Origin: Umbelopsis ramanniana AG
Taxonomy: Eukaryota; Mucoromycota; Umbelopsidomycetes; Umbelopsidales; Umbelopsidaceae
NCBI RefSeq assembly: GCF_025399195.1
Contig: NW_026252095.1
Location: 62,001-126,000 of the forward strand
DNA length: 64,000 bases
Direction: 5' to 3'
Shown here: positions 2,428 to 64,000 of the stretch, one piece after another
Layout: the number at the start of each line of letters is the position of its first letter
Numbering within the stretch: the first letter of the stretch is position 1
Program-made: the position numbers and the translations under genes
The notes under the pieces: generated by a model
Seen by the model: only the letters and a program-made list of their open reading frames with translations
The model's database searches: none
Told to the model about the DNA's origin: nothing

Positions 2428-2582
2428 TTGTATGAGTTACCCTGGGGTGTTCTCACGCACGTGAGCTCATGATTGTGCTATAAACGGAAGGAGGGCGGTT
2501 CTAGTTAACAACTTGCCTAAATTTCAATGTCAGTCAATTGGATTTGTTCCATTGAAAAAAAAATAAAAAAAAAAATTAGTGG

Positions 2583-2590
2583 TATATAAA
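2583..2590 (+). promoter_or_regulatory. TATA-like element upstream of the CNT gene
   Basis: TATATAAA lies 70 bases before ATG 2660, a reasonable distance for a TATA box with a short leader. Identified by sequence only. Confidence 0.4.
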
Positions 2591-2659
2591 ATAAAATCAT
2601 TGGCCCATGAATCGTCCCTCTTCCCCTCTTCTTGGTGACCTCCTCGACCCATTTCAACA

Positions 2660-4653
2660 ATGGACAGCCATCTCACTCCTGGTGAAGATCATCTTCAAAC
2701 AATGGGCACGCCTTCCGCGCCTGGCAGCCCTCACCACGAAGTTCAAATAGACGACGACAATATTCTGCCTGTCTACAACGAGGACAAAAAAGAAGGTGGC
2801 TTTGATGAACGCTTGGAAAAGAGCGAATCCCCTATACCCGCCGGTGCAGCTACAGAAGAGGAAGCGCAAGCGTTTGATGGCAAATTGACGTTTGACAACT
2901 TTTTCGAACGCTACCGTAACTGGATTCGGTATGTATTAAACAGTCCCTCTGGTATGATGGTTGGGACGTGAATTAATGTAACAACCCGCGAATAGTCTTG
3001 CCACTTGGCTCATCTTCACTGGCTTCTTGATTGCTGCCCTTGTGCTGCAAGTGCCAAAAGGTTATAGTCAAGAAAACCTTATTCTTGGTCTGATTTACGC
3101 CTGGACAACCTTATACTTTTTGTTCTGCTTCATTCCCACCACCGTCGTCACCAAACCATGGAACCGCTTTTGGTCGGTGGTGTCTCGCCCCGTCATGAAA
3201 ATGCCACTGAAATGGAGAAAGCTTGCCTATTGCTTTTTCACCTTTGCCGTCATTGTCATTACCATTTTCTGCCTGCCCGACAATCCAGCCAGCGGGTCAA
3301 CCCGAGTGCGTAAACTAATTGCCTTGTTTGGAATGCTTGTCTTTATCGCCATTACTTGGTTGACTTCCAACGTAAGTACACTCCTACTCACTTTTACTTG
3401 CCCTACGCATTGTTTATTTAAATTCGCGACTCTCTTGAATAGAATCGAAGAGCTGTGCCATGGTTGACCGTCTCTAGTGGTATGCTGTTGCAATTCTTGT
3501 TGGCGTTGTTTGTGTTCAAGACATCTGTTGGTTTCGATATCTTCAATTGGATGTCGACGTTCGCTAGTTCTTATCTTGGCTTTAACAAGAATGGTCTAGC
3601 TTTTGTGTTCAGCGAGGATATTGCTAACATGGGAATGTTCATCATCTCCGTCGTCCCCGCTGTTATCTTCTTCTGTTCTACCGTCTATATCCTGTTCTAC
3701 ATCGGTGCGCTGCAATGGATTATCAAGAAGGCTGCTGTGTTCTTCATGGTCATTTTGGGCACCTCCGGAGCTGAATCCATTGTCGCTGTTGCCTCACCTT
3801 TCATTGGCCAAGGTGAATCGGCTCTTCTCATTCGTCCTTTTATACCCTACATGACTAGATCGGAACTTCATCAAGTCATGACTTCAGGTTTCGCTACGAT
3901 TTCCGGTTCTGTGTTGTATGCATACATGCAAATGGGTGTCCCTGGATCCGCTTTGCTGACAGCCTGTATCATGTCTATTCCTTGTTCATTGGCTATCAGC
4001 AAGATCCGATACCCTGAAACCGAAGAGTCCTTGACCACGGGTCGAGTCACCATCCCCCCTAGAACCGAGCATGAAGCCAACATTCTTCATGCGGCAGGGA
4101 ATGGCGCTGCCATTGGTTTGAAAATCGGTGGTTTGATTTGTGCAAATATCATTTCTCTTTTGGCTCTGCTTGCCGCCGTCGATGCTGGTCTGACATGGAT
4201 AGGCAACTTTATCACCATCCAAAATTTAACTTTGGAACTCATCACTGGATATATTCTTGTCCCTGTAAGTAGTCACACTCTACCGCGTCTGGATGGTGGT
4301 CGAAATTTTGATACTATTGTTGTTCACAGGTCGCTTGGTTGATGGGTATCGAAGATGCTGACTTGGTCCCTGCTGGACGTCTGTTGGCTACCAAGTTGTG
4401 GGCAAATGAGTTTGTCGCTTACAGTGACCTTACTACTACGTTTAAGGGTACCATCACGGATCGTACTGTTACCATCATTACTTACGCTCTGTGTGGTTTC
4501 GCAAACTTGTCGTCCATCGGTATCCAAATCAGTGTCCTTGGTGCACTCGCTCCAGAGCGCACAGGTGAGATTTCCCGTCTTGCCGTCTCGGCCATGCTTT
4601 GCGGTGCCTTGTGCACCTGTTTATCAGCATCCATGGCTGGTATGTTACTGTAA
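2660..4653 (+). CDS. Concentrative nucleoside transporter (CNT/SLC28 family)
   Basis: Exons 2660-2928, 2996-3371, 3443-4264 and 4330-4653 give 596 residues. After an acidic cytosolic N-terminus (about 90 residues) come repeated hydrophobic segments. Family hallmarks are ASPFIGQGESALLIRPF near 332-348, the following MTRSELHQVMTSGFATISGS, and the late LATKLWANEFVAY segment. In CNT proteins these loops form the nucleoside and cation site, so this is probably a plasma-membrane Na+- or H+-coupled nucleoside importer; cation preference cannot be read from the sequence. The start ATG follows a TATA-like element, and the stop TAA comes shortly after the final hydrophobic helix, as is usual. The length is normal for eukaryotic CNTs. 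It is transcribed away from the cap methyltransferase in the same direction, with no sign of functional linkage. Confidence 0.93.
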
Positions 4654-49459: not shown

Positions 49460-52400
49460 TTAGTAAACTTCGAGAATGTATCTCTCCTTGTCCTTCCACT
49501 CTTCAATAAGATCGGAAGCAGCACGCTCTTCCATACCACCATATTGCTTGAGGCCATAGACAACAGCGTCCTTGACATCGGGAACGGGCCAGGTGGGACC
49601 ACAGAGGTAGAAGTGGGCCTGTTCATTGATGAGGTATTCGTACAATTGACGAGAATCTTCTTGCATCTTGTGCTGAATATACACCTTTTGCTTTTGGTCA
49701 CGAGAGAAGGCAAGTCCCATGTGGGTGAGAAGACCTTCAGCATGGTAAGCCTCCAACTCCTCACCATAGAGGTATTCATTGCGACGGTTACGGGAACCGA
49801 AGTACAACATCATAGGACCAACTTCAACACCGGAGGCCTTGAGGACAGAACGTTCTTGGATGAAAGCACGGAAAGGAGCCATACCAGTACCGAGACCAGC
49901 CATGATGACAGGCTGAGTATCAAGAGGAGGCAACTTCATGACGGAGGGCTTGATGGACACAGTGACGTTGGCGCCGATCTTGAGGTCGCTCAAGTAACGG
50001 GTACATTGACCATAACGGACTTCACCGGTGGAGGTCTTCCAGTCGACAGCAACAACGAGGAGATGGACAGAGTTAGCGAACATCTTTTGAGATGAGGCAA
50101 TGGAGTAGTGACGGGGCTTGATGGGAGCGACAATGGTGGCCAACTGCTCGACGGTGGGTCTAGCCGAGGTGAACTCGCGCAATACATCTTCGTAAGTGAC
50201 GGTTTCGTCAACACGCTTCTTGTATTCCTCCTTGCCTTCAGATGAGATAAGGAAAAGTAATTGCTCACGCTCCTTGGCGTCAGTGGTGTATTCGGCAAGA
50301 GATTCGTAGAACTTCTTGGAGGGACGGCCAAAGATGTCGAGGGTTTGAGTGAAGAGTTGGAAGATGGTGCGGGTTTCGCGCTGACCGGCTTCGTTGGCAG
50401 GAAGAGCAATGATATCTTGACCATTGATACCGTACCATTCCAAGAAACGTTGAACTTGACGTTCGTCGTTCAAACCGTGAACTCCCAAGGCATCACCGAG
50501 GTTGTACTTGAGACCAGAGTTACCAGTATCGAACTCCAAATGGAAGACGTTACGATCGTAAGTGCCGGGAGTGAGACGTCTGTTCTCAGTGCACTTGACA
50601 ACGAAGGTATCCTCATGGAGATCCGGGCGCAATGCAGTCTTGGATGCATAAGCTTCCTTGAAGATAAGGTCCCAGGCAGCTTGATGCCATTTTCCAACAG
50701 TGGCGGCACCTTGAGATTCATCAGGAACCAAAGCAGAGTCTTCGTTGGTGGCGGCACGATCGGCAGGGATCTTGGGCAAGACGGCGTCAGAGATTTCGAG
50801 AATGGTCCATGGAGGCAAGAGATCAATCTTGGTCAAATCAGCCTTGACAGCATCAAAGATTTCTTGAATAAGAGCAGCTGTCTTCTTGGAACCATCCATC
50901 TCTTGGTAGAGAGCAGCCAAAGCAGAAGAAGAAGCATCGACCACGTTCTTGTTGAGAAGGAAGTAAGCGGTTTCGAAAATGAGGTTGCGAGACTTGTGGC
51001 TCAAGGCAAGGTTTTGGGCAATGCTGGCAACATCGATGGTGTACAATTGAATATCAAGTTGCGTGGCACGGAGCTTGAACTCGTTGGTAAGCTTGGGCTC
51101 AATCTCATCACCGTTCTTCCAGGGACCGTTCAACAACACGGTGGCCTTTTGGTTGCTGGAAGCCAAAACATCGTACTCCTTGATCAAAGCAACATCTTGA
51201 ACAGCAATGAAAGAAGCCTTCTCGTAAGCGTAGGCGTTGACATCGGCGGACTTGCTGAAGCGCAAGTGGCTGTTAACCACCGCACCACCAGGTCTGTAAG
51301 AATCCTCAACAATGCGAGTCTGGACGTGAAGAGACTTGGAGAGGATGTTGGAGACATGAGAAGCGGTGTGGGTCTTGGCGACTTCCCAGAAAATGGCTCT
51401 GGAAGCGGTATCGACCAAAGCGGGCTCATCGGCCAGCGATGTGTATTGTTCGCTGTTGAGATCAACAAAGTTGTTGGTCTCGCTCAAAAGCTGAAGAAGA
51501 TGAGCGGGTCTCAAGTTACCATAGTTGATAGATTGAGCAGTGACAATGCGAGGCTTCACACCGGTCCATTCACCGAAACGGAAGGAAGCAGCGACATCCA
51601 AGAACAAAGGACCGTTGAAGGCGAAAAGACCATCACCTTGTTCAAGAACAATGACACGCTTGGCTGTCTTGGGAATGGCATTAAGGAAATGAGCCTCAGA
51701 CCAAGGTCTGCACAGACGGACAGACAAAATGCCAACACGGTTAGCAGTGGCAAGCTGACCAACGGCTTGCTTGACGGTTTGGGAACCAGCACCCAGGGTG
51801 ACAATGACGGTCTCGGCATCGGAAGCACCAGAGTACTCAAAGATGTGATAATCACGACCTACGGCCTTTCCAACTTGACCGAGGATGTTCTCAACGGCAT
51901 CGTATGCGTTGGTGTAGCTGGTCTCCACGGCAGCAACATTGGCGGCGATGCTGGCAATCTTGGCGTAAGGGAGAAGGTCGACCTTTTCGATCTCCTTGGC
52001 GGCCTTGACACCATCAAAGTAGTGCAAGATAGGCAATGAGGTGGACTTGGAGATAATGTGAGCAGCCAAAGCCATATCATGGGCTTCCTGAGCGTTGTTG
52101 GAGGCCAAGAAAGCGAAGCCAGTGTTTCTAGCGGCGAGAACAGAGTCGACTTCAGGAGAGAGTTCAAGCCCATCATCCAGAGCATGAGCACCAACATGAA
52201 TAACAACAGGAAGCTTGGACTGAGCAAGAACATGCATGTTGGGGATCATAGTGAGAAGACCTTGGGAGGAAGTCAACACAGTGACAGCAGCAGGGGCAGA
52301 GTGGACGGCACCGTGCACAGCAGCAAGAGCACCAGCACGAGTATCCATATGAGCCACCTTGCCGTTCTGTCCATACACATTGGCAATGTTTTCAGCGGCC

Positions 52401-52747
52401 CATTGTTCAACACTTTCACCGAGGTAGCCGGTGGGCAGACCGGGGTAAACAAATGACAAATCAGATAGGCCATAAGCAATGTAAGCGGTAGCAAGGTTGG
52501 CGTTGACGAGGCGGGACAGGGTATCATCGGAAAGGTCATTGATAAGATGAGCGTTGGCGAGCTTGCTCTTAAGTTCGATCAAAGCATCTTCGTCGACAAT
52601 GATGGTTTGGCTGCTGCTGGTGGTGGAGGCAGCATCAAGGTCGGGGGTGCCTACAGCAGTAGGAGCGTCGTCTAAGGGTTGTTGCAAGTCAGAGGAGAAT
52701 GTCCTTGTCTTCAAAAGCGAAGCGATCAACGCTGTCGAGGCAAACAT
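49460..52747 (-). CDS. MET10: Sulfite reductase [NADPH] flavoprotein component, MET10-type
   Basis: Intronless, 1095 residues (yeast Met10 1035). The N-terminus is followed by a pyruvate:ferredoxin oxidoreductase-like region (FVYPGLPTGYLGESVEQWAA; HMDTRAGALAAVHGAVHSAP; VLTSSQGLLTMIPNM), then a spacer and a ferredoxin-reductase-type module from about residue 720: FAD binding with RHYSIASSQK (RxYS motif) and GEVRYGQCTRYLSD, and NADPH binding with VIMAGLGTGMAPFRAFIQER and YFGSRNRRNEYLY, ending RYILEVY. There is no FMN flavodoxin domain, as in fungal Met10. It feeds electrons to the siroheme subunit Met5 in sulfate assimilation. The codon choice is strongly biased (many GCC, GTC, CTC), consistent with high expression, and produces long spurious frames on the opposite strand. 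Confidence 0.95.
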   Translation of the reverse strand: MFASTALIASLLKTRTFSSDLQQPLDDAPTAVGTPDLDAASTTSSSQTIIVDEDALIELKSKLANAHLINDLSDDTLSRLVNANLATAYIAYGLSDLSFVYPGLPTGYLGESVEQWAAENIANVYGQNGKVAHMDTRAGALAAVHGAVHSAPAAVTVLTSSQGLLTMIPNMHVLAQSKLPVVIHVGAHALDDGLELSPEVDSVLAARNTGFAFLASNNAQEAHDMALAAHIISKSTSLPILHYFDGVKAAKEIEKVDLLPYAKIASIAANVAAVETSYTNAYDAVENILGQVGKAVGRDYHIFEYSGASDAETVIVTLGAGSQTVKQAVGQLATANRVGILSVRLCRPWSEAHFLNAIPKTAKRVIVLEQGDGLFAFNGPLFLDVAASFRFGEWTGVKPRIVTAQSINYGNLRPAHLLQLLSETNNFVDLNSEQYTSLADEPALVDTASRAIFWEVAKTHTASHVSNILSKSLHVQTRIVEDSYRPGGAVVNSHLRFSKSADVNAYAYEKASFIAVQDVALIKEYDVLASSNQKATVLLNGPWKNGDEIEPKLTNEFKLRATQLDIQLYTIDVASIAQNLALSHKSRNLIFETAYFLLNKNVVDASSSALAALYQEMDGSKKTAALIQEIFDAVKADLTKIDLLPPWTILEISDAVLPKIPADRAATNEDSALVPDESQGAATVGKWHQAAWDLIFKEAYASKTALRPDLHEDTFVVKCTENRRLTPGTYDRNVFHLEFDTGNSGLKYNLGDALGVHGLNDERQVQRFLEWYGINGQDIIALPANEAGQRETRTIFQLFTQTLDIFGRPSKKFYESLAEYTTDAKEREQLLFLISSEGKEEYKKRVDETVTYEDVLREFTSARPTVEQLATIVAPIKPRHYSIASSQKMFANSVHLLVVAVDWKTSTGEVRYGQCTRYLSDLKIGANVTVSIKPSVMKLPPLDTQPVIMAGLGTGMAPFRAFIQERSVLKASGVEVGPMMLYFGSRNRRNEYLYGEELEAYHAEGLLTHMGLAFSRDQKQKVYIQHKMQEDSRQLYEYLINEQAHFYLCGPTWPVPDVKDAVVYGLKQYGGMEERAASDLIEEWKDKERYILEVY

Positions 52748-53084
52748 GGTGTTAAGACAAAAGAGATGGTGAACAGAGATTTCCTCGATTTAATTTCATT
52801 GAATATAAGCCACGGTTGGATGAATAAACCTTTGGGTTCATCGGAGCACGCCATCCATCAATCGCTGCAGCCATTCACCGTCGTTCGAAATTGCGCAATT
52901 CAAACATTGGATGTGCACTGCTAAAAATTTTCATGTTCCGACTCACGATCCAATCACATTCAAGATCTCCATCTTACGGGGAAGTGTTACTAATGGGTTG
53001 GTTCCAAAAAATAACATATATTAAAAATACAAAAATGGAGGATACATCATACTAGTTTCAATGAAGTCTCTCTCTAAAGCCATT
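52748..53084. promoter_or_regulatory. MET10 promoter and IDO 3' flank, 337 bases
   Basis: Pyrimidine- and AT-mixed sequence. The end near 53010-53040 is AT-rich as for a 3' end of the dioxygenase gene. No CACGTG sulfur-gene box is seen in the MET10 side. Confidence 0.45.
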
Positions 53085-56627: not shown

Positions 56628-57772
56628 ATGTCGGAATCTTCTTTACAACAACAATCCACCACCACCCTGATGGCTCAAGACAAGACTCCAAAGTCATTCT
56701 TTAGTGAAAAGACCAAAGAGACCATGGCTGGTTTTGTCCTGGGAGGTATGGCTGCCTGTGGAGCTGTAACCTTCACTAACCCTTGGGAGGTACGAAAAAC
56801 TTTATTTTTTTTGGGTCACTTCTGTTTAGCCATTCAGCAATTCATGAGTATCTTCATCGGCGTAGGTGGTTAAGACCCGACTTCAACTTCAAGGAGAGTT
56901 GGTTCGTTCTGGAACCTTGGCGGCGGAGGCTAAGCCCTATCACAACAGCTTTCAGGCGCTAGGCCTCGTTTTTAAAGGCGAAGGCGTCCGTGGTATTCAG
57001 AGAGGTTTAGGAGCGGCCTATGTGTATCAAGTGTGTCTGAATGGTTCTCGACTTGGCTTTTACGACCCTATTCGTAATATCATTCTGAACGTCACTGGCT
57101 CCGAAGGTGTATCCGCCCGAGTTGCTTCCGGTGCTTTGGCTGGAATGGCAGGCGCTTTGCTTGGTTCACCGCTGTACTTGGTGAAGACCCGCATGCAGTC
57201 ATTCTCGCCTGTTTTCGCAACCATTGGTCATCAACATCATTACTCGTCAACCTGGTCAGCATTATCCAGTATCTGGAAGCTTGAAGGAGTTCGTGGCTTG
57301 TATAGAGGCTGTGATGCTGCCATGGCTAGAGCCGGTGTTGGAAGTGCTGTACAATTGCCAACATACGATTACTCCAAGCGATTCCTCAAGGCTCGTTTCA
57401 ATATGGTCGAAGGCACATCTCTTCACTTTGCTGCAAGTATGATTTGCGGTTTCCTTGTATGCTGCGCTATGAACCCATTCGACGTTATCAGCACTCGTAT
57501 GTATAACCAAAAGGTCGACCCTGTCACGAGAGTGGGTGTCTTGTACAAGAACCCTGTGGATTGCTTGGTCAAGATGGTTCAAACTGAAGGTGTAGGGGGT
57601 CTATACAAGGGATTTGCTGCTCATTATTTGAGAATAGGGTGAGTGTTCCATCTCGGCCATTTTTTTATATGCTGCTACATGACTAATCTATCTTTTCTTT
57701 AGCCCACATACTATGTTGATGTTTGTATTCTACGAACAATTGAAGACGGCATACAAGAAACATTTTGATTGA
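56628..57772 (+). CDS. OAC1: Mitochondrial oxaloacetate/sulfate carrier, OAC1-type
   Basis: Exons 56628-56789, 56866-57638 and 57703-57772 give 334 residues. Three mitochondrial carrier repeats show signature motifs NPWEVVKTRLQLQGE, SPLYLVKTRMQS and NPFDVISTRMYNQK. The strings AAYVYQVCLNGSRLGFYDPIR, QLPTYDYSKR and GGLYKGFAAHYLRIGPHTM are close in arrangement to yeast Oac1, which carries oxaloacetate, sulfate, thiosulfate and alpha-isopropylmalate across the inner membrane. The proposed substrates follow from that similarity, not from direct evidence. The first intron is placed just within the first signature (NPWE|VVKTR). A possible sulfate role is worth noting next to MET10, 4 kb away, but the neighbourhood alone proves nothing. 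Confidence 0.9.
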
Positions 57773-58767: not shown

Positions 58768-61700
58768 TTATGAGAATGCCAGTTGGCCAATAATGCTGTC
58801 ACCCGAGATATCGGTTTGAGGTATATTACCAGCAATCACTTTGTCAAATTTAGTGGGTAGGTTTGGCGTCTTGTCGGTCCATTGAGCCGTGTCAATTACG
58901 ACGTCGCCATGATCCGATACTTGAAAGGTTCCGTCGTTCTCACCACTATTCAAAACGTAAATTCTATATTTGTTGGAAACAGCATCTAAGGCTGCAAGAG
59001 TAGCGTCCAAATTGTTTTGCCCCTAGAATATAAATTTCCATTTGATCAGCATACTTCCTACCGCTAACACTAATACAAATCATTTCGACTTACAGTACTC
59101 CAGTTGGTTACAAAGATATGGCCTATGCCAGCATTGGGGTTACTTAATCTGTTTGTAATGATGTCCGTCAAGCAAGAGCCCGCCGGTTGAACTGCAAACG
59201 GGAAAACAGTCAATAAAACATAGAGAGGAATAGTATAACGGCAGAGCTACGTACATGTTTTACCCTCAGTCTTTCCACTGATGAGATAAACGTTGGCGAC
59301 AATGGAAGAATACAAATTGATCATCTTCAGCTTCGAGCAATGGTGAGGCACCTGGTATTCAAATGTTACTTCAAAATTTCAGATAAATTGACGTCGCACA
59401 CCTTTAAAAACAAACCTTTAGGATTGTATACAACGGCCATGAGGCTCGAAGTTGAGATACATATTGCCACTGAAGTTCATTCATATCACCTGTGAACAGC
59501 ATTTGAGTTGATCCTGTGGTCATTTCAGTTATGGTACTAGAAGAGCAAAGGTTAGTGAACCGGATGAAGGTTCTAAAATGGCTTTTGTGTACTTTACCTG
59601 ACCATATTGCTCGCTGGACCTTCATTACTGTTTGGCTGCTTCATGAGCTGCTGCTGAGTACCACCCATATCGTCGTCAGGTAAATCTTCGTCAACGTCCA
59701 TTGATTCAGTTACATCTGTTTGACCGTCATTCCAAGTGGGATATGAGACGGGACTGGTGAGGCGGCCGGTACCACACATATAGGGCATAGAAAATGCACT
59801 GAAAAGACTGCCAGATATATCGAGGTTGTTCGCACCCATCATCATGCCGATACCATTATAACCGAAGTAAGGGGAACCTCCAGCGCCTTGGTTGCCACCA
59901 CTAGTCTGACCATGGGCTGGCACCCACGTACCGCCATTATTGTTGGACAGTTGACTCAACTCGCTCAGTAGCAAGGCATACTCCTTGCTTCGCAACGAAT
60001 TCACCGCGTCTTGGAAAACCTGAAGTCCACCGACTTCATATGATGTTTGAGCAAATAGTTGAATACGATCGCAGTCTTCGTTGCTATTGTCGAAAGGTAC
60101 ATTAAGCATTTCTCTCAGACTCAAATCAAAAGGAGAATCACTAGAAAGAAAATTTTAGAAAAATGGGTTATACTCTTCTTCAGATTCTAGTATACACTTA
60201 CTGCATAAACCCGGTGCCAGGATCATTGACATTGCGAATTTGGTTTGTGACATATCTGCTTGGTCGGAAGTATGGTATACCGTTGACCGATACCGCGTTC
60301 TGTAAAAACATTTGAACTAACCCTCTGATATGATCTGCAATAGAAATCTAATCAATTTTGAACACAAGAGCATAGTTCTAACACTGCGAAACTTACCAGT
60401 ATCTGAATGAGTTAGGATGACGGTATCGAAGAGACTGGGTTGAGCTTTCTTTGAAATTGCCATGTTGGCAATAACCTAATAATCAATAGTAAGAAATTTG
60501 TCTTGATATTATTGTCGGTGTCCTTATTGTACTTACCGATTGCAAAGCTTGTAATTCTTCGGAGTATCCTTTACCAGCATCAATCATGATACCTTTTGTT
60601 GCCACAAGCACACCTCCGCTTCCCGATGCCATCATCATATTTTCAGCATTAGTTCCAAGACCGAAGGTGTTTTGCCAATTTTGAACTTCGATGACGAAGG
60701 CTGAGAAAAAGCTATTAGATGACATATTCCAAATACTGTGTTCATATGCATTCAATCAACTTACACTCTCCTCTACCAACTTGAACCATATGAATAACCG
60801 TTTTACGAGCAGTATAAGCCTTGCATCCAGTTGCCTGTCGTTTAGTAAGACCGTCAGGGCAAGCTTCACCAGGTTGCGTTTCGACAGTAGGAGGAGGACT
60901 AGACAGTCTCGGAGGCATGGTTGTACAAGTCAAGTTGTTGTAGACAGCTGCCAATGCGCGGTTATCATCCGTATCCTGTCCAAGAAGCCAAATCATTCCT
61001 CCTGCTAACCCTTTAGCGCCAGCATAACACATCTAAGTAAGAATTCAATATATTAGAACTGGTCGTAGCATCGGCTGATAAAAATCGATTGCTTACCTTG
61101 TTAGCTAATGCCTTTTCACTATCATAACTGGCAAACTGATTGAGGGAAGGATTCCAGGCCCATGATGCTTGGGAATATGGATCCCAGTATGTAGTCCAGG
61201 AAGGATCACTGACAATTTGAGCGAAAGTTGGCATAGCAGTTGCATCCATTTGAGCGCCTGTAAAAGGCTGATACAATCCAGGGTATTGAGAGCTGCTATA
61301 TGCCTGACCAGGTTCAACACCAACTTCCGTTCTAGAATAGAATGGAACACCAAGAACCAGTCGGGAAGGATCGCAGCCAGCATTAACCCATCCATTGACA
61401 GCGTCATCAATGGAATACTGCTCGCCTGTTGCTCCAGGAGTGTTGTCATAGATGGGTGCTTGGTGGTTAGTAATTGTATCCCAGGCACCATGCATGTCGT
61501 AAGTCATCAAGTTGACATGAGTAACAACAGAGCAAATGGCCTTCTTATCAAGAAATTGGTATTTGTCGTATCCTGAGGGAGCTGCAATGGACAATTCATA
61601 CATATCACCGTGCTTGTTTCTTCCAAGTTTAGTAGGTCCAGCAGTATTAAGAGCAGTCCTTAACAAAGTCAAGAAGTTGACATATTGAGCTGGGTCGTTG

Positions 61701-64000
61701 CTGCGAGCAGTGTCTTCACAGGTAGAAGTTATACAGTTTTGCGTGTTTTCTCTGTCGCCATAGGCGGCCTGTTGATACAATGGCTCATCACCGTGCTCGA
61801 ATCCGGGATATTCCCAGTCGATATCAATTCCATCGAAAGGAAAGAAGTCTAAGATTGATACAATGGATTGAACAAAGCTCTCGACATGGGCAGGGTCCGT
61901 GGCTGGCGTAAAGTAGTTCGCGTCATACCATCCACCAATAGACAACACAACTCGAACTCCGTCAAGGGCGGAATCTTGCAAGCGCATAAGGTCCAAAAGA
62001 TAGCTGAATTGTCCGCAAGCCAGGATGGTACTTCCATCAGGAGACTCTTTCAAGGTTGTTCCGTCCATTTTTGTAGTACAAGATGGATTTCGACCGCCTT
62101 CAGGTCCACCTGCATTGTAACAAGTAGTCACTGGGCAAGAACCATCTAAATGAAATAAATCAGTTTCAGAGATGAATAATGTTGACTATTTTACATAGAC
62201 AAAAATCATACCAGATTCTTTGTAGCCAAAGTATGGGACCTAAATACAAATAGTTCGATTATACAGTTCTGTTAGACCTCCATATTAAAATGCGAATTAT
62301 CTGACGATACGCCTTACCATGCTAATGACACCAGGAGCACACTGGTATGAGGAGGGGATTGCCATGCAATTATCGGTGTTGCTGTTGTCGAAGAAGAACG
62401 AGCTGATTGTACTCCAAGTACAGTCAGCAAGTGACATGCCAGAGCAGGCACCAGTGTCAGCAAATAGATCGGTAGGGTCGAGGTAGTAAGCATCCAATTC
62501 TGGGGAATAGGACACCATGGAGAAAGCATAGTTGATATGTGTAATCATTTTGCCCATCTCTGGTGTGATCTCCACAATCTGATTGTTGTTATGATAGAAG
62601 GTCCAGTTTGGATAGTAAGCCTTCAAGACCTTTCCATAAGGCGAAGATGGAGGCTGAAGAGTTTTGGTAGCGTCACTCGGGTTGCAAATAGGTAAATTCA
62701 TATCCTTGGGTCCGTAGATATCCTTTGTCCACCACAGAATGGTAATCCAGATATGGATCTCTTCATAGCTATATCATTAATTAGTTTAGTCAATGGAAGA
62801 GTAGCAATACCGTATGTGTACATTTACTAAAAAGGTGAAAACTTACTGCTGCCACATATCGATGAAACAGAAGTCATCTATAGATAGCCTCGTCAGTTAC
62901 AATATTCTTTCCGTATGGTCATTTTTAAATCATCACTTACTGGCACAATAATCAGATCCCTGGCACAAATCATCGTCACTAGGCATCAGTTTAATCATTA
63001 AACTTCCTTCAATTGTAACCTGTATTGATCATATTAGATGTTCTTCTTTCACAAACTTTGGCCAATGAATGTCTTGTACTTACAATGATAGTGAGCTCCG
63101 CATCAAGCTGTAGGACTCCACGATTATTCCAATATCTTCCTTGTATATGCAAACAAGGTGGAGACTAGAACGCAAAGTCCATAAATTAGTATGCTGAGTC
63201 CATAAATTATTGGGTCACATCAATCGTGAAACTTACAATGTCAAATACATTCAAAACGTCATCTATCGCCGGATCGGACAAACAGAATTCAATATCTATG
63301 GATTGGTAGTTATCTTGAACTTCAGTGACAACACCGGTGCCATTGACATAATCTGATGGTAAATTGAATGGTTTCAGTACTTATGACAGCTAATATTCAT
63401 CATTAGCAAGCAGAAATTTACCTGATTGAATACACCATTCCTCAGCAATACGGATTTCAAAGAAATCACTTGTGGAAAAAAGATGTCAATACAAGCTTTC
63501 ACAGACTGTTTAGCTTGAAAAACTTACGTTACAGGCCAAACGCAGGAATCACTCGAACAGTAATCTGTCTGTGAGACCTCCCCATCATTGTCAGGTTCAT
63601 AATTTGCACCGCCAACCTCATCAATGATGTTCTTCAAACTTGTTGGATCACACCATTGTTTAATGTTGAGCAGACGCTTATCGAGAGGATGGCGTTTTTT
63701 TCTCGCCTCTTCACGCTTCTGTAGCATTCTTCTTTCATTAGCAAGCTCCGGATACTTTTCTTGAAATTTCTTCAAGACGCCTTCTTGGAATTCGCGCTTG
63801 GACACGCTTCGTTTGGAAAAGGCTGGGTTGGCGGTGGCTGTATCAATCTCCTGTGTATATATAGCATTACAGTAAATTAATGGCAGAGAATTTCCACAGA
63901 AGCAGGAGTTTGATTTGGTGAAAAAGGTATTTCCGTTAGTAAATGTACAAAACTGACTCCTATGAGATGCGCCAGTAGCTTCAAGAGCCATAAAGAAAGG
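58768..64000 (-). CDS. GH18 chitinase fused to ComEC/Rec2-like metallo-beta-lactamase domain, 5' partial
   Basis: Eighteen exons in coding order: 64000-63528, 63468-63422, 63352-63237, 63164-63084, 63019-62941, 62877-62847, 62768-62318, 62239-62212, 62145-61097, 61032-60765, 60700-60537, 60475-60397, 60334-60202, 60140-59598, 59536-59416, 59351-59255, 59191-59094 and 59022-58768; at least 1367 residues, all in phase. Region 1: basic, KR-containing N-terminal segment and a Cys-bearing domain of unknown kind. Region 2: GH18 barrel (VLKAYYPNWTFYHNNNQ, VVLSIGGWYD, catalytic FDGIDIDWEYPG at 61811-61834, LMTYDMHGAWD, AGGMIWLLGQD). Region 3: TVIHMVQVGRGESFVIEV, IMIDAG, LTHSDTDHIRGL, LFTGDMNEL, LKVPHHCSK, the ordered motifs of ComEC-type metallo-beta-lactamase domains. 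The chitinase likely cleaves chitin; the second domain binds metal and may hydrolyse phosphodiesters (inference). The 5' end lies outside; Met at 63991 may not be the start. Confidence 0.85.

Follow-up and report, generated by a model that had tools for sequence, protein, structure and literature searches.

A predicted Umbelopsis gene places a ComEC-type metallo-beta-lactamase domain behind a LysM chitinase

The minus strand of a 64,000-nucleotide stretch of Umbelopsis ramanniana AG (contig NW_026252095.1, positions 62,001 to 126,000; hereafter the window) carries the 3' part of a gene whose predicted product, the window protein, joins a GH18 chitinase to a metallo-beta-lactamase (MBL) domain of the ComEC/Rec2 type. 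From the N to the C terminus the modules are ordered as a signal-like start, a LysM array, a dibasic linker, a Cys-rich stretch, the GH18 domain, a Lys-Arg pair and the MBL domain (Table 1). The reading favoured here, to which we give an even chance of being right, is that of a secreted, chitin-targeted precursor which is cut by a Kex2-type protease and releases a manganese-type nuclease against chitin-walled cells or their remains.

The gene was modelled over contig positions 120001-136000, a region extending beyond the window (contig positions 62001-126000), by dynamic programming over codon use and splice signals, with codon scores trained on the long open frames of the same gene; four places at which the scripted model was over-split were corrected by hand. 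The resulting model, predicted from the sequence alone, comprises 30 exons and 3,078 codons plus a stop between window coordinates 58768 and 69984, with a single start and stop codon and with 29 of 29 introns bordered by GT-AG. Its 5' part lies outside the window and runs to contig position 131984 (window coordinate 69984); of the extent first proposed, 58768 to 64000, the stop end was exact and the other end marked only the edge of the window. Paralogue searches of the genome (22.8 Mb in 123 contigs) gave nine matches to the MBL domain, all nine at this gene, and ten to the chitinase, of which three fall in this gene and seven, with 28-43% identity, at other places. A Lactamase_B family search of the genome identified seven other places and missed the gene itself, whose MBL domain is split over exons. 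The contig of the gene was the only one common to the lists of GH18 and LysM matches, both of which are lower bounds.

The seam between the two enzymes falls within one exon, in which a single open frame takes in the last part of the barrel (AGGMIWLLGQD), then LTKRQ, then the first MBL strand (VIHMVQVGRGE). The original prediction had assigned both ends to exon 60765-61032 and had argued from this for one gene rather than two merged, and its coordinates proved exact. When the MBL domain was searched against 7,424 database candidates, the single hit was P0001, a protein of 478 residues from Umbelopsis sp. WA50703 that NCBI lists as hypothetical protein VKS41_009408. It was annotated independently, starts inside GH18 and continues through LSKRQT into the MBL domain. 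Because P0001 has the same GH18-KR-MBL order, where KR is Lys-Arg, the fusion is not an accident of assembly or gene model, and a merger of two genes was rejected on this ground and on the position of the seam within one exon. P0001 ends early, on a contig of 3,862 bases, with the LysM part and the last ~115 MBL residues outside its view; GH18-KR-MBL was seen in two genomes, the present one included, and the full architecture in the present one.

Between P0001 and the window protein, 66 of 78 residues are identical in the GH18 tail (84.6%), 32 of 55 at the GH18-MBL joint (58.2%) and 144 of 334 aligned positions in the MBL domain (43.1%, with 53 window residues unmatched); BLASTP gave 38% over 421 columns. 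The MBL domain has changed more quickly than the chitinase tail (43% versus 85% identity) while the compared active-site residues stay. A search with the fungal pair (E up to 10; 7,860 candidates) returned three proteins, namely P0001, P0002 and P0003. P0003, a bacterial ComEC (E 3.8e-6; ComEC_Rec2 291 bits), was the sole protein match beyond fungal-like sequences. P0002, a second relative found with the two-sequence alignment, has 209 residues, comes from a 991-base contig of a JGI metagenome and is ungapped at three exon joins of the splice model. No further MBL relatives of ~849 to 2,700 residues were identified at E 0.01 among the 7,999 best word-sharing candidates, a range outside which proteins near 3,078 residues fall. 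As a separate observation, residues 1-21 of P0002, ahead of SAITEMTTGS, resemble the end of a retained intron, and the three later intron places are ungapped, as might be seen in a partly spliced transcript.

In the MBL domain the motifs IDAG, HSDTDH, TGD and VPHHxSK were all found in the order originally described, the last as VPHHCSK. The domain matched Lactamase_B (PF00753) just over the cut-off of 22.7 bits (E 2.7e-5, 24.6 bits), and P0001 scored under it (19.9 bits). Fourteen positions (VGxG, D, HxDxDH, NxxS, the D of TGD and HHxS) were compared in an alignment of 11 rows, and at 14 of 14 both the window protein and P0001 carry residues common in ComEC, motif II being HSDTDH in the former and HSDKDH in the latter. 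Every one of the 10 rows with letters has the motif III Asn, and all 11 have the motif IV Asp and the His, His and Ser of HHxS; the middle Asp of motif II is found in 8 of the 10 with letters, two of the eight bacterial rows having His. The motif II Asp and the motif III Asn are said to separate ComEC from Pce (PMC8579336); however, since two of eight bacterial rows have His, the Asp is not decisive alone.

A contig scan of genomes identified 14 bacterial loci, 13 of them Bacillota by record titles; locus L031, the single one so tested, had ComEC_Rec2 as its best match, and the remainder were taken as ComEC-like by their motifs. Seven of the 14 were used in the structure alignment and motif table, and eight in the profile comparison by hhalign, which aligned 85 columns of the fungal pair to them, around motifs III to V, with 99.3% probability and an E-value of 2.7e-20, motif II falling outside these columns. 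Two window exons were omitted from one alignment after aligning badly in an earlier one. The original prediction had named a structure prediction without an MBL fold as refuting it, and the model computed for P0001, a relative rather than the window protein, displayed the ComEC fold in its core, with Pce as the second-best fold. Together with the motif set in both proteins, this bears out the assignment to the ComEC/Rec2 type. The competence membrane domain PF03772 had no match in three segments of the window protein (Pfam, E 1 or E 0.01). The Avs1a profile (NCBIfam NF041809) matched the window MBL with an E-value of 5.9e-12 and 45 bits, far under its cut-off of 420, and P0001 with 35.7 bits; the LmuA profile matched the window MBL with an E-value of 1.1e-16. 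A special kinship with Avs1a or LmuA is unsupported, as both profiles also pick up bacterial ComEC domains.

On these motifs and this model, the MBL domain would be a manganese-type phosphodiesterase or nuclease of the ComEC kind. The isolated ComEC domain of M. thermoacetica is described as a manganese-dependent DNase that digests circular DNA as well (PMC8579336). For the M. glycerini domain, most metal-ligand mutants are reported to be virtually inactive, with losses of ~five-fold for the middle Asp mutant and ~three-fold for the DNA-binding Ser mutant (PMC12455585); the HxDxDH residues were placed by that paper and the others here by motif order.

The GH18 domain, for which a Pfam search had been suggested along with one for Lactamase_B, was matched over nearly the whole profile (Table 1), and its intact catalytic motif lies exactly at the originally given position. 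Residues 1 to ~23 look like a signal peptide, and the LysM array, up to residue 1641, contains 17 stretches each with E<=0.01 (PF01476; whole-segment E 1.9e-171). LysM modules with a catalytically intact GH18 motif, and Kex2-type sites between modules at which cutting may occur, are both features of killer-toxin-like LysM chitinases. Of the eight Lys-Arg or Arg-Arg pairs in the protein, six are in the linker, one is in the LysM array and one is at the seam; residues 1841-2520 and 2576-3078 have none. In 2000 whole-protein shuffles, six such pairs never fell inside 50 residues, a test that ignores the local Lys/Arg richness of the linker (25 of 199 residues). The P_proprotein domain of Kex2-type proteases had one match in the genome. 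ChtBD1 was absent from the Pfam matches of residues 1-1641 (E 0.01) and 1642-2554 (E 1), and the C-terminal 524 residues matched MBL families only (Pfam, E 1), not Hce2; a genome search with Hce2 (PF14856) returned no match and was likewise silent in 14 control genomes. The Cys-rich stretch between the dibasic linker and GH18 has no Pfam match and could be a separate, undescribed domain.

In the mechanism proposed, the gene product would be secreted as a precursor of ~3,080 residues, its LysM array would bind chitin, as is usual for the family, and its GH18 domain, with the catalytic motif intact, would cut it. During secretion, a protease of the Kex2 type would cut at the dibasic sites observed in the linker and at the seam, and the MBL domain, whose motifs are observed and whose fold is modelled in a relative, would act as a manganese-type phosphodiesterase or nuclease. 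The chitin-binding and chitin-cutting parts would thereby direct the nuclease to cells with chitin walls or to what is left of them, where nucleic acid would be degraded. The delivery-plus-effector idea of the original prediction is backed by the LysM array, the dibasic cluster and the conserved seam Lys-Arg, and remains unproven.

That neighbouring genes were joined by the gene model or the assembly might be suspected of a splice model predicted from sequence and corrected by hand at four places, but a single exon spans the seam and the annotation of a second species contains this fusion too; we regard such an artefact as nearly negligible in probability. It is also very improbable that a LysM chitinase tolerates the MBL domain at its C terminus as a structural or catalytically silent appendage: the weak Pfam scores (24.6 bits for the window protein, 19.9 for P0001) and the fast divergence of the domain speak for it, but all 14 compared motif residues are kept at 43% overall identity. 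Pneumococcal Pce (CbpE) is a modular, wall-anchored MBL phosphodiesterase with choline-binding repeats. The fungal protein has LysM modules in place of these repeats, and Asp and Asn in motifs II and III where Pce has His. A LysM-anchored cell-wall or glycan phosphodiesterase of this kind, which would not cut nucleic acid, is improbable given that both fungal proteins carry the motif II Asp, indecisive alone, and the motif III Asn of the ComEC kind (PMC8579336).

The same secreted chitinase-nuclease could instead serve feeding or the turnover of the fungus's own wall, converting fungal or insect necromass into chitin sugars, phosphate and nitrogen with no killing of live cells. The neighbouring open reading frames, which we take from their sequences to be ordinary metabolic genes, would suit such a role. 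Umbelopsis species are likewise described as soil saprotrophs (PMC12002602, PMC13042297); however, a long chitin-binding array and the release of a nuclease by Kex2 would seem needless for feeding, and the MBL domain has changed far more quickly than the chitinase tail, and we consider this explanation somewhat unlikely, if a serious contender. Within the favoured reading of a chitin-targeted nuclease precursor, antagonism to other fungi is preferred over plain feeding because of this faster divergence and of the likeness to killer-toxin carriers. In its boldest form, which we hold to be doubtful, the gene would encode a chromosomal one-gene killer toxin, in which the LysM chitinase carries a silent MBL DNase that is released by Kex2 at the seam and kills chitin-walled rivals upon entry.

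The closest design found is ORF2p of the Debaryomyces hansenii linear plasmid pDH5A, which turned up in a search for killer-toxin genes and is described as a protein of 1,226 residues with a signal peptide, a LysM element, ChtBD1, GH18, a NucA/NucB DNase fragment and five Kex2 motifs, two of them ahead of the DNase fragment (PMC8472843). According to the same source, these assignments await laboratory confirmation and linear plasmids were then without any known DNase activity. The window protein resembles it in its putative signal peptide, LysM, GH18, candidate Kex2 sites and DNase-type part, and ORF2p differs in its ChtBD1, its NucA/NucB fragment instead of an MBL domain, its plasmid location and its length. 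In zymocin, the alpha- and beta-subunits deliver a toxic gamma-subunit, a tRNA-cutting nuclease, and the alpha-subunit and the C-I/C-II chitinases that resemble it share LysM and GH18 with the window protein (PMC2614207, PMC8042737). The window protein differs from the C-I/C-II chitinases in having no ChtBD1 in Pfam scans and an MBL domain, not Hce2, at its C terminus, and was likened to them by modules rather than by GH18 phylogeny. Its arrangement is reminiscent of yeast killer toxins, in which a carrier is combined with a nuclease, although the nuclease differs, and it would add to ORF2p another, structurally distinct solution for placing a nuclease behind a LysM chitinase.

With the C-terminal MBL of ComEC/Rec2 (PMC8579336, PMC12455585; PDB 9ic4) the fungal domain shares the compared motif residues and, in the P0001 model, the core fold; it differs in its lack of the competence membrane domain, its large insertions, the loss of the GHP motif and its fusion to a chitinase. 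HamM and Avs1a are bacterial pro-DNases of the same MBL class, freed by proteolysis of gating insertions (PMC12799240). The fungal domain has profile matches and long insertions in common with these and the LmuA-associated defence nucleases, for which activation by proteolysis is described (PMC12799240). They are bacterial, and the fungal domain scores far under the Avs1a cut-off. No GH18-MBL fusion was found in the literature searched, subscription journals being mostly outside its coverage; one source lists a metallo-beta-lactamase and GH18/LysM as separate genes (PMC12506109), and the main text of a GH18 survey of 373 fungal genomes contains neither 'lactamase' nor 'Umbelopsis' (PMC8042737). 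The original statement that no protein of this order had been described holds within that literature, but the LysM-ChtBD1-GH18-DNase plan has a precedent (PMC8472843). What appears new is an MBL nuclease-type module on a killer-toxin-like LysM chitinase plan; the plan itself is known and a toxin role is unproven.

Table 1. Window coordinates of the gene and its features.
Feature	Coordinates	Strand	Remarks
3' part of gene	58768..64000	-	18 of 30 exons wholly or partly in window; splice model
Linker between LysM array and chitinase, candidate Kex2 cutting region	63674..63814	-	six KR/RR, residues 1771-1817 (47 residues)
Cys-rich stretch	62630..63604	-	residues 1841-2030, ~190 residues, no Pfam match
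GH18 chitinase	60973..62620	-	residues 2034-2513; PF00704, E 1.1e-63, profile 4-317 of 317
GH18 catalytic motif DGIDIDWE (DxxDxDxE)	61811..61834	-	intact in sequence
Seam exon	60765..61032	-	GH18 end, KR site and first MBL strand; same order in P0001
Lys-Arg at GH18-MBL seam, candidate Kex2 site	60838..60843	-	residues 2557-2558; kept in P0001 (LSKRQT)
ComEC-type MBL domain	58768..60804	-	residues 2570-3078 plus stop codon; part of seam exon and eight further exons
Motif I IDAG	60573..60584	-	sequence, motif alignment
Motif II HSDTDH	60330..60409	-	split by intron 60335-60396
Motif III Asn	59606..59608	-	residue 2886; ComEC-type residue, His in Pce (PMC8579336)
Motif IV TGD	59485..59493	-	sequence, motif alignment
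VPHHCSK motif	59331..59351	-	sequence, motif alignment

The window has a guanine-plus-cytosine content of 44.6%, compared with 44.16% reported for U. nana THIF13 (PMC13042297), and scans of it with Rfam and for tRNA genes returned no matches. Three units of AAACCCT, described in that paper as the telomere repeat of THIF13, have one exact match in the genome, at C1:39-59. Near the gene lie two open reading frames, at 49460-52789 and 56866-57642, which from their sequences are presumably sulfite-reductase-like and mitochondrial-carrier-like, respectively. Elsewhere in the genome, a second LysM cluster (contig C32:244124-247027) accounts for 7 of the 29 LysM matches of the genome search and is probably a separate multi-LysM protein, its contig having no listed GH18 match. 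Two GH18 matches on contig C7 (262105-262728 and 264715-265512), ~2 kb apart on the same strand, are possibly tandem chitinase genes. In viral contigs, 43 stretches fitted the search pattern and none was confirmed.

Because LysM chitinases of filamentous fungi resemble the zymocin alpha-subunit, they have been hypothesised to act in antagonism (PMC2614207). In the window protein, a chitinase and a dibasic site are followed immediately by an enzyme of nuclease type in which none of the compared active-site residues is missing, and the carrier-plus-effector idea is directly testable because of this position. A ComEC-type MBL domain, otherwise met here only in bacterial proteins of DNA uptake or defence, is thereby placed in a probably secreted fungal protein. 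If the killer-toxin form were true, the MBL nuclease would be the counterpart of the anticodon nuclease in zymocin, and the gene would be a eukaryotic analogue of the proteolytically activated MBL pro-DNases of bacteria.

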